Below, one piece after another: positions 20,975-26,246 of a stretch of DNA of 26,246 nt. The stretch lies in the IMG/VR virus record IMGVR_UViG_3300043119_000276, positions 1-26,246 of that record. The stretch is one strand, 5' to 3'. A program made the translations under genes and the position numbers. The notes under the pieces were generated by a model. It had not been told where the DNA came from and made no database searches. It saw only the letters and a program-made list of their open reading frames with translations. How positions within the stretch are numbered: the stretch's first letter is position 1; each line of letters starts with the position of its first letter. The stretch comes from a virus.

Positions 20975-21309
20975 CGATCGCTCCGGTTGAGGTTAAGAGA
21001 GGGCGTCCAGTTTCTGGACGCCCCTTGCACAACTGCCCGCTGCTGGGCAACCATGTACTGGGATCGCGCCTCCTGCAGCAACCGCTCGCAGGTTTGCACG
21101 AAGGTGCGGGCTTGCTCCATGGAGGCGTGCGCATCGACAGGCTTGGCTTTGGCCGAAAACTTGCGATCGAGCTTCCAGCGGCTCAGGTTGATGATGTGGG
21201 GCGGCCTGCGCCCCGGCCCGCGCTGCTGCAGCACCGGGTGCGGCGCTGCGCTGGGCAAGGCAATGACCCGCGCAGCTGTGCGCGCAGGCAATGAAAGAGA
21301 GTGAGCCAT
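20971..21309 (-). CDS. 112-residue leader ORF coupled to the antirepressor (Icd position)
   Basis: MAHSLSLPARTAARVIALPS starts at ATG 21309 behind a strong GGAGG. The middle is basic (RRPPHIINLSRWKLDRKFSA) and the second half helical (ASMEQARTFVQTCERLLQEA). It overlaps ant by ATGA. The position equals icd in phage P1, where translation of icd is needed for ant translation and both are blocked by C4 antisense RNA. I do not see similarity to Icd itself beyond layout. The same frame is open upstream through the RNA, as in other Icd/Ash-type loci, so a longer protein is possible. Confidence 0.65.
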   Translation of the reverse strand: MAHSLSLPARTAARVIALPSAAPHPVLQQRGPGRRPPHIINLSRWKLDRKFSAKAKPVDAHASMEQARTFVQTCERLLQEARSQYMVAQQRAVVQGASRNWTPSLNLNRSDR

Positions 21310-21319
21310 GAGTGGCCTC

Positions 21320-21329
21320 CAAGCGGTGC
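21320..21329 (-). promoter_or_regulatory. Target site for the C4-like RNA at the leader-ORF ribosome-binding site
   Basis: On the minus strand GCACCGCTTG lies directly before the GGAGG Shine-Dalgarno of the ORF starting at 21309. It is perfectly complementary over ten bases to CAAGCGGTGC in the structured RNA (21404-21395). The next target bases GGAGGCC can pair with GGCCTGCC of that RNA (21420-21413) with one bulge, which would mask the Shine-Dalgarno. Confidence 0.65.
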
Positions 21330-21368
21330 GGTTTGCTACAACCACCTCACCCCCTGCTAAAGGGTGGC

Positions 21369-21446
21369 GGTGGCTCGAACGGGTAGCAGACCGGGCACCG
21401 CTTGCGCGAACCGGCAGGCCCTCGCGGGCCTCCCGTCCGAGCCACC
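21369..21446 (-). ncRNA. c4: C4-type antisense RNA controlling the antirepressor
   Basis: Read on the minus strand, 78 nt fold into a three-way junction. The closing helix is GGTGGCTCGGACGGG with CCCGTTCGAGCCACC (15 pairs including one G-U). Hairpin one is AGGCCC-GCGA-GGGCCT with a GNRA loop. Hairpin two has CCGG pairs and TCGC-GCAA-GCGG, again a GNRA loop. C4 RNAs of P1/P7 are about this size, lie before icd/ant on the same transcript, and bind the ribosome-binding region to silence ant. Here the unit lies downstream of the primase gene and 60 bases upstream of the leader ORF of ant, with a ten-base complement at that start. Family call by structure and context; not checked against a covariance model. 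Confidence 0.75.
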
Positions 21447-24375: not shown

Positions 24376-24669
24376 CTAGCCGCCCCATGCCCGCAGCACG
24401 CTGCCAAGGTCTACAAAGCCCGCCTGCTCATCCGGCATCAGGCCGGCGGGCACGTATTCGGCCACGGGCCGGTTGCGGTATTCCACCTCGCGCTTGCGTG
24501 CAATGCAAAGCTGCCCCGCGCGGCTCATGTTCTTTGCGGTCTGCGTGGCCGCCTTCAGGCCCACGCAAGCCACCGCTGCCATCTCGCGCAACGTGGCGCC
24601 CCGCTCAGGCGTTGCCAGCTCGCTGCAGGCGTTCAACAGCGCCACGCGCACTTCACCCGCCGGCCTCAT
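24376..24669 (-). CDS. Small helix-turn-helix-like protein in the replication operon
   Basis: The 97-residue protein starts MRPAGEVRVALLNACSELAT at ATG 24669, which overlaps the previous stop (ATGA). Residues 2-55 read like a winged helix: VALLNACSELATPERGATLR, EMAAVACVGLKAATQTAKNM and SRAGQLCIARK, followed by a strand (REVEYRNRPVAEYVPA). A role in DNA binding, perhaps at the origin, is inferred from this and from the neighbouring primase; I recognise no named family. The 77 bases after its stop contain no gene before the primase. Confidence 0.75.
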   Translation of the reverse strand: MRPAGEVRVALLNACSELATPERGATLREMAAVACVGLKAATQTAKNMSRAGQLCIARKREVEYRNRPVAEYVPAGLMPDEQAGFVDLGSVLRAWGG

Positions 24670-25163
24670 GCTGCAAACCCTTCGCGCGCCTTCCAGCGCT
24701 CCATGGTGCGCTGGTGTTTGGCATCCAGGTGGCGCATCAGGCCCTGGCCATCGGCCACCAGCGCGGCCCACTTGGCGTGCACATCGGCCAACTCGTTCTT
24801 GCTGATCTGGCCATCGGCATCGGCGCTTGTGGCCGCCGTCACCAGGTCGGCAAACTCGCGCATCAGCTGCGCCAGCGCCTGGCCCGTCACGGCATCACTG
24901 CCATCCTGCCCGGCGGGCAGCAGCACCAGCATGCCGCCCACCGCCTCAGCCACGCGGGTGGGGTATTCCACCCCGTGCGCGCCACCCAGCTCCACACACA
25001 TGGCGGCAATCTCGGCAGCATCCACCGCGCCCATCTTGTACTGCGGCGCACCACGCAACTCTTTCTCCAGCGTGCTGGGCGACTTGCCCAGGCGTGCGGC
25101 CACGGCATCGGTGCCACCAGGGTAATGGCGCACAGCGCGCCGCAAAGAATCAAGCAAGTCCAT
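24666..25163 (-). CDS. CII-type phage regulatory protein (CP76 family)
   Basis: The 165-residue protein opens MDLLDSLRRAVRHYPGGTDA then VAARLGKSPSTLEKELRGAP, the helix-turn-helix block typical of the Phage_CP76 regulatory CII family, followed by an Asp/Glu-rich pocket (AAEIAAMCVELGGAHGVEYP) and the GGMLVLLPAG strand. The helical C-terminus should oligomerise. CII-like proteins switch lysogeny promoters. I prefer ATG 25163, eight bases after AAAGG; an ATG at 25172 has too short a spacing. It is the first gene of the replication operon. Confidence 0.85.
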   Translation of the reverse strand: MDLLDSLRRAVRHYPGGTDAVAARLGKSPSTLEKELRGAPQYKMGAVDAAEIAAMCVELGGAHGVEYPTRVAEAVGGMLVLLPAGQDGSDAVTGQALAQLMREFADLVTAATSADADGQISKNELADVHAKWAALVADGQGLMRHLDAKHQRTMERWKAREGFAA

Positions 25164-25418
25164 CACATCCACCTTTCAAAACGCTATCGACCGGCGGCCA
25201 CCGTGCGCAACACACTGCAGCCATGCAAAAAAAGCACCCCACCACGCCACCATGCAAAGCGCCGCGCACCTGCCCGCGAGCGGCGCACCTTGGTTATGGG
25301 GAGGAGGTAGGCCCCGGCAGCACAGCCGTGGGCGTGGGGGGTGGCAAAGGGTGGGCGCCCGCAGGCGTGGCAGCACAATGGAGTTCTCACACAACCACTT
25401 GCCATGAGAGGGGCGCCC
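25164..25418. other. 255-base divergent control region between CII-like and plus-strand gene
   Basis: No gene is convincing here. A seven-pair inverted repeat GCGCCGC (25259-25265) and GCGGCGC (25280-25286) could form a hairpin in early transcripts. A run of seven A at 25227-25233 gives a T-run on the minus strand but lacks a clear stem before it. TTTGCATGG occurs twice on the minus strand. The region should contain the promoters of both flanking genes, or an antitermination site in a transcript started at the Cro-like promoter. Confidence 0.45.
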
Positions 25419-25714: not shown

Positions 25715-26017
25715 CTACGCATGCGCCACCCCCTGCGCTACGGGTTCAGTAGCTACTCGCGCTTGATGGGCAAGGGCTGTGGTGCTATTTGGCTCAAACT
25801 TCACCAGCTCGGGCCAGATGCGCCAACAGCTTTCAGGCCAATACTCCCGTCGCAAAAAGGCGCCGGCCGTGAATAGCTCGATTGCCGCGCCATGCTCCAC
25901 GGGCACGGGCTTTTCGCCCGACGCCATCTTGGACACGAACGACGGCGGCACCTTGAGGTGCGCCGCCAGACGCATGGTGCGGCCGCGTTCTTCGGAAAGC
26001 CATGATTTGAGTTTCAT
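25715..26017 (-). CDS. Cro/YdaS-type helix-turn-helix regulator
   Basis: The 100-residue protein starts MKLKSWLSEERGRTMRLAAH at ATG 26017. The HTH is RTMRLAAHLKVPPSFVSKMA, then SGEKPVPVEHGAAIELFTAG; this and the final WRIWPEL are typical of YdaS/P22-Cro-type regulators. Such proteins bind the operator between themselves and the repressor and help start the lytic programme. A strong promoter places the transcript start at about the A of the ATG, so the mRNA is probably leaderless. An upstream frame extension would run over the operators and is not real. Confidence 0.85.
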   Translation of the reverse strand: MKLKSWLSEERGRTMRLAAHLKVPPSFVSKMASGEKPVPVEHGAAIELFTAGAFLRREYWPESCWRIWPELVKFEPNSTTALAHQARVATEPVAQGVAHA

Positions 26018-26024
26018 GGGCGAG

Positions 26025-26054
26025 ATTGTATTGCCCAATGGGTCATATTTACAA
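26025..26054 (-). promoter_or_regulatory. Promoter of the Cro-like gene (leaderless transcript expected)
   Basis: On the minus strand -35 TTGTAA (26054-26049), an 18-base spacer and -10 TACAAT (26030-26025) match the sigma-70 consensus in four and five of six positions. Only seven bases separate the -10 from the ATG, so the transcript should start at or next to the start codon. Confidence 0.65.
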
Positions 26055-26088
26055 CCACCCTTTGGAAAATTCTCACCCCACCCTTTGG
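26055..26088. repeat. Paired 11-bp direct repeats, candidate operators
   Basis: CCACCCTTTGG occurs at 26055-26065 and 26078-26088, 23 bases apart start to start (about two helical turns). The first abuts the -35 of the Cro-like promoter and both lie upstream of the repressor start, so they are good candidates for the repressor or Cro operators. A looser inverted repeat GGGC...GCCC (26018-26036) lies over the -10. Confidence 0.6.
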
Positions 26089-26105
26089 TGCCGAGAATCG
26101 GAGTC

Positions 26106-26246
26106 ATGCAAACAGTGCATGAAACACGCCGCGACCGCCTCAACCAGTTGCTGAAAAAGTACAGCACCTACGCGGCGTTGAATGATGCGCTGGGCTGGTC
26201 CCGTACAGACTCCAAGCTGTCGCGGATCAAGAATGCAAACACGCGG
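26106..26246 (+). CDS. CI-like prophage repressor, N-terminal part only
   Basis: From ATG 26106, 47 codons run off the right edge: MQTVHETRRDRLNQLLKKYS, then TYAALNDALGWSRTDSKLSR. This is the typical start of XRE-type repressors with an S24 (LexA-like) C-terminal domain in Burkholderiales prophages ('tiHe.RR..L..L...yg..aaln.alg.srtds..sqik'). The C-terminal peptidase half is outside the window, so autocleavage cannot be judged. It is divergent from the Cro-like gene across an 88-base operator region. It is the presumed target of the antirepressor encoded at 20327-20974. Confidence 0.75.
   Translation, partial: MQTVHETRRDRLNQLLKKYSTYAALNDALGWSRTDSKLSRIKNANTR

Follow-up and report, generated by a model that had tools for sequence, protein, structure and literature searches.

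The C4 RNA and its operon

The window, a complete IMG/VR record, is a linear fragment of 26,246 bases, and all coordinates of the locus described here refer to its minus strand. It encodes a C4 antisense RNA (21452-21363), followed by a leader ORF of 112 amino acids (21309-20971) at the position that icd holds in P1, and by an antirepressor gene (20974-20327) whose product has a Bro-N domain (PF02498, E 2.7e-24; PHROG 130 anti-repressor Ant, E 3.1e-46). The two ORFs overlap by ATGA, as a preliminary description of the sequence had read them, and we infer from this overlap that their translation is coupled. Pfam and PHROG searches with the leader ORF gave no match. Its full length, frame and stop are kept in three relatives, and third-position changes prevail in comparisons with L004, with a weak signal in the closest pairs.

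The Rfam scan returned a full-length match to RF01695 (C4) at 21452-21363 (49.9 bits, E 5.4e-07, cut-off 45), the sole RNA family above cut-off in the window. Our own covariance model scores the same RNA at 66.2 bits, the window sequence being part of that model’s training set. Folded alone, the RNA is a three-way junction closed by a helix of 16 pairs, and each of its two hairpins ends in a GNRA loop (GCGA and GCAA); its minimum free energy of -56.6 kcal/mol (z -4.85) was equalled by none of 200 shuffles. The preliminary description had the strand, the junction and the hairpins right, and its closing helix exists at 16 rather than the 15 pairs it gave. For the family, a GGW motif at the C4 5' end has been described as the site of RNase P processing to about 77 nt (PMC5320573): the GGT at 21446-21444, near the 5' end of the window C4, corresponds to this site by prediction, and the predicted mature RNA, placed by offset from the P1 c4 gene, spans about 21446-21366.

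The locus thus joins the known C4 family as a clear additional member. This family has been predicted in many Proteobacteria including Burkholderiales (PMC2864571, PMC5320573), and C4 RNAs ahead of antirepressors were already known; what this analysis adds is the full covariation of a1, b1, a2 and b2 and the link between isrK and C4, both described below.

Pairing of the C4 RNA with its targets

The second hairpin of the RNA contains the segment b', CAAGCGGTGC (21404-21395), which is perfectly complementary over 10 nt to b2, GCACCGCTTG (21329-21320), just 5' of the ATG at 21309. This is the first of the two pairings that the preliminary description had proposed. b2 covers the first G of the leader ORF’s Shine-Dalgarno sequence GGAGG (21320-21316) and so lies at the ribosome-binding site; its 10-mer is unique within the window, and when the downstream DNA was shuffled 5000 times, a 10-nt match to the b' loop arose in just 21 cases. 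A second proposed pairing, between GGCCTGCC and the Shine-Dalgarno region GGAGGCC, did not hold up: no more than five of its pairs are contiguous, its GGCCTGCC side belongs to the 3' strand of the first hairpin, and a change on one side only (GGCCC) breaks it in the relative L092.

The earlier reading missed a second downstream target and both upstream ones. The segment a', CTGCTA (21389-21384), lies in the strand that links the second hairpin to the closing helix; it pairs with a1 and a2 and covaries with them. Its downstream target a2, TTTAGCAG (21361-21354), lies immediately 3' of C4. The a'/a2 pairing of the window has 6 pairs, not 7, because a' lacks one base: it reads CTGCT-A, with one A fewer than in relatives, where the window’s own a1 and a2 would expect CTGCTAA. 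Upstream, a1 is the loop TTAGCAG (21531-21525) of the hairpin CGGGTTAGCAGCCCG (21535-21521), a target or mimic, and b1, GCACCGCT (21518-21511), is an 8-nt complement of b'. The b1 complementarity is not rare alone (299 of 5000 shuffles), yet it covaries among relatives; complementarity and covariation together support a1 and b1 as upstream elements of the same transcript. The stretch GTAGCAAACC (21339-21330) was also considered as a target of the a' strand and rejected: in L085 the target is constant while a' differs, which means that the two do not covary.

Covariation was scored in an alignment of four sequences (the window, L085, L086 and L092), three of which cover the upstream side. With a'/a2 and b'/b2 as the structure, 98.5% of cells were paired, a value that none of 500 shuffles equalled, and pairing dropped to 30-51% when the segments were slid by one to three columns. 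Both sides had changed in 8 of these 17 pairs, so that the RNA and the start region vary in a compensatory manner, and in 4 of the 10 b'/b2 pairs taken alone. Such changes and a C4-model match above cut-off were the two computable conditions on which the preliminary description could have failed, and it passed both. The alternative structure, a1/a' with b1/b', was 88% paired with 8 double-changed pairs (0 of 500 shuffles). Few change events could be counted because the alignment holds just four sequences; still, double changes occur at both target sites. Among these close relatives 18 of the 34 columns in the pairing segments are variable, compared with 29 of 137 elsewhere. At the level of the aligned sequences, covariation demonstrates the pairing of C4 with its targets. 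The four closest C4 members carry four distinct a' sequences and are therefore predicted to represent separate immunity types, as with P1 and P7.

A P1-type antirepressor operon

The P1 record, which together with later papers is our source for this phage, annotates a1, b1, c4, a2, b2, icd and ant1, the last two of which share 4 bases. The window has counterparts of all these elements in the same order, with its leader ORF in the position of icd, which agrees with the P1-like switch (c4-icd-ant) that had been suggested for it. The window shares with the immI loci of P1 and P7 the fold, a' and b', a1/b1 upstream, a2/b2 at the ribosome site and the ATGA overlap between leader ORF and ant. It differs from them in that the leader ORF has no family match, the unit follows a VapE-like primase gene, the upstream terminator has lost its U-run and a' is one base shorter. 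Given its folded structure, the compensatory changes in all four pairings (two downstream, two upstream), its gene order and the Ant domain, we are highly confident that the window locus is a P1-type C4 antisense RNA operon, one that would silence a Bro-N antirepressor.

In such an operon a1/b1, C4, a2/b2, the leader ORF and ant would be made as a single transcript, from which C4 would be excised as an RNA of about 80 nt, as RNase P does in P1. Its a' and b' segments would pair with a2 and with the Shine-Dalgarno-overlapping b2 on the downstream message and would block translation of the leader ORF and, through the ATGA coupling, that of ant, probably along with premature termination. The prophage would then stay silent unless the C4 RNA is out-competed. 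Processing by RNase P, repression, an action of Ant on a CI-like repressor and a role in maintaining lysogeny are what the P1 system leads us to expect (PMC5320573, PMC12197685). With this locus, Comamonadaceae phages gain a well-supported example of a C4 antirepressor switch.

Survey of C4 loci

Three sets of sequences were searched for C4 loci: viral contigs (C4 in 14 of 80) and genomes (11 of 42) that have a Bro-N relative, and 200 genomes belonging to a single order (27 above cut-off). Once near-duplicates had been dropped, 69 nonredundant loci were obtained, 66 and 65 of which were scoreable for target matching. The C4 RNAs are much better matched to the targets at their own locus than to those elsewhere: a' matched its own a2 over at least 7 nt in 83% of nonredundant loci and its own upstream stretch in 86%, the corresponding figures for loci that differ in a' being 1.3% and 5%. 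These first-pass a' matches contain some chance hits (for example upstream in L091). For the P3 loop, matches of at least 8 nt were found with the locus’s own b2 stretch in 63% (1.1% for other loci) and with its own upstream stretch in 37% (0.9%).

The genes around C4 are less uniform. Because only those 14 of the 80 viral contigs with a Bro-N relative have C4, its combination with this kind of Ant is lineage-specific, and a general association of C4 with Bro-N genes was rejected. A Bro-N-like ORF lies within 1.5 kb downstream of C4 in just 14 of the 69 loci, as judged with a profile built in this analysis. ATGG occurs at the C4 5' end in 47 of 69 loci, but no more than 28 keep an open frame across C4, so that an ORF at C4 is not a general feature.

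The gene downstream of C4 encodes AntA in L096 and Rha in L217, and C4 lies ahead of primase genes (zinc-ribbon primase, PriCT-2, Toprim) in L179, L187 and L213, as in P4-like satellites. Pseudomonas sp. M47T1 (G109; L248-L267, L180, L202, L208) has 25 C4 hits in one genome. All 20 of those examined match their own a1/a2 over 6-9 nt, with the own target strictly best in 16, and several precede genes for DUF3077 small proteins; the set apparently consists of orthogonal C4-like switches outside antirepressor operons.

The upstream leader and its link to isrK

At a relaxed threshold the leader ahead of the window C4 matches RF03163 (c4-a1b1) at 21571-21517 (21.5 bits, E 0.0027), below the cut-off of 46.7, and RF01394 (isrK) at 21558-21466 (21.4 bits, E 0.013), below the cut-off of 50. 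A hairpin occupies the usual place of an intrinsic terminator (21503-21470). It is kept in the window and its close relatives, which have lost the U-run that should follow it (degenerate in the window, CTTCGTTGTC). With its score below cut-off and the U-run of a Rho-independent terminator absent, the window leader falls outside isrK. A consensus promoter scan ahead of a1 in the window found none; alignment with relatives points to a weak candidate, TTTTAA-16-TACACT (21592-21565), roughly 40 nt ahead of a1, close to the spacing in P1.

At other C4 loci the leader is recognizably isrK. Matches above cut-off occur at L179, L215, L226, L186, L181 and L091, and across 27 genomes an isrK match lies at most 51 nt upstream of 55 of the 72 C4 hits (median gap 26 nt). 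Conversely, C4 adjoins 30 of the 36 isrK hits of at least 35 bits; the other six, strong matches beside which no C4 hit was detected, are all in the multi-copy genome G220. This genome has 20 C4 hits, and G195 has 12 (order of G087). A terminator-like hairpin with a U-run is present within 100 nt ahead of C4 in 49 of 68 loci, compared with 10 of 345 and 8 of 340 control stretches.

Gifsy-1 provides a published counterpart, the IsrK-orf45-anrP locus (RF01394). As in the window, a leader is followed by a C4-model RNA and an antirepressor; unlike in the window, no separate leader ORF lies between C4 and anrP. The C4 match (69.0 bits) comes directly after isrK (79.3 bits), with c4-a1b1 likewise above cut-off (P1 has C4, c4-a1b1 and a weaker isrK match). 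At L240 34316-34131 (-) IsrK is thus followed by an unannotated C4 RNA inside which the published "orf45" starts. In the numbering of PMC4825925 this start is 4 bases inside the C4 match, and about 26 of the 45 codons lie within C4; the published model assigns the greater part of the C4 stretch to this 45-codon ORF, whose stop codon overlaps the start of the antirepressor. G28 and G31 of that work map to a1, and C159 and C162 to a'. Changing C159 or C162 raised antirepressor translation from 4 to 926 and 484 units, more than 100-fold, and a northern blot showed that the C4 stretch gives rise to a processed RNA about 80 nt long (PMC4825925). The authors raise P4 CI as a parallel, and the term "c4 RNA" is absent from their text.

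The identification of the orf45 stretch as a C4 RNA is well supported. A C4 role in Gifsy-1 is less so, because activation by IsrK dropped when the start of orf45 was altered or a stop was introduced, and co-expression of orf45 RNA made IsrK-mediated growth arrest stronger (PMC4825925), results that oppose a simple repressor reading. Reading orf45 as C4 amounts to a specific and directly testable reinterpretation of the published Gifsy-1 mutants.

These observations bear on how the window switch is set. One possibility, which we hold only tentatively, is that its a1/b1 leader is a functional IsrK-like small RNA, a target mimic that titrates C4, such that the ratio of leader to antisense sets the switch. 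The close association of isrK with C4 fits this, as does the 139-fold rise in antirepressor translation when Gifsy-1 IsrK is supplied in trans (PMC4825925). The window leader, however, scores below the isrK and c4-a1b1 cut-offs and has no clear terminator, and in Gifsy-1 additional orf45 RNA strengthened rather than weakened the growth arrest caused by IsrK.

It is somewhat less probable still that the locus works chiefly by transcription attenuation, with C4 pairing to its upstream and downstream complements causing premature termination. This has been proposed for P4, where CI pairs with the upstream seqA and the downstream seqC and termination results (PMC4825925). The P4 CI region is matched by the same C4 model (74.9 bits), with upstream matches to isrK (60.8 bits, above cut-off) and c4-a1b1 (44.1 bits, just below), and like the window it has complements on both sides of the RNA; unlike the window, it is described as terminating the transcription of replication genes and not as controlling an antirepressor. 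The covariation of a1/b1 with C4 and the frequent U-run hairpin ahead of C4 also favour attenuation. Against it, that U-run is lost in the window and its close relatives, and b2 overlaps the Shine-Dalgarno sequence of the ant-coupled ORF, which fits translational control, although the two modes are not exclusive. Because the terminator is degenerate in the window’s lineage, we regard the block on the downstream message as the more likely main mode of the P1-type operon proposed here. It is very improbable that the window C4 is a decayed remnant losing function: its a' lacks one base and its terminator is degenerate, but b'/b2 still pairs perfectly over 10 nt, nothing disrupts the closing helix, the leader ORF and ant have open frames that three relatives conserve, and the missing a' base could be a metagenome sequencing error.

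For C4-type loci in general, we lean towards a three-part RNA switch: a terminated a1/b1 leader (IsrK), a C4 RNA that would be made through read-through only, and an a2/b2 target, of which the window would be a terminator-decayed variant. The comparison unites RNAs that have been described separately, namely P1 C4, P4 CI and Gifsy IsrK/orf45.

Host and genomic context

Among 201 genomes from the same family as a Comamonadaceae MAG, two encode terminases 79% (G375) and 74% (G461) identical to that of the window. A Comamonadaceae host is supported by these sequence identities, in keeping with the betaproteobacterial prophage that had been proposed. The prophages of G375 and G461 are colinear with the window around the terminase and primase, and between the primase gene and the next shared gene they gave no Ant match and no convincing C4 hit. 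The C4-leader-ant unit therefore behaves as an optional cassette. Stretches of colinear Comamonadaceae prophages with the cassette absent after the primase gene are L246 10500-11900 and L247 1-1300.

In the relative G002, about 4.6 kb separates C4 from an S24-type CI-like repressor gene and a Cro-like gene, and the order on the contig is Cro-like, CII-like, primase, C4. The window itself encodes YdaS-like and CII-like (CP76) regulators at 25715-26167 (-) and 24666-25172 (-), upstream of the primase gene and on the same strand as C4.
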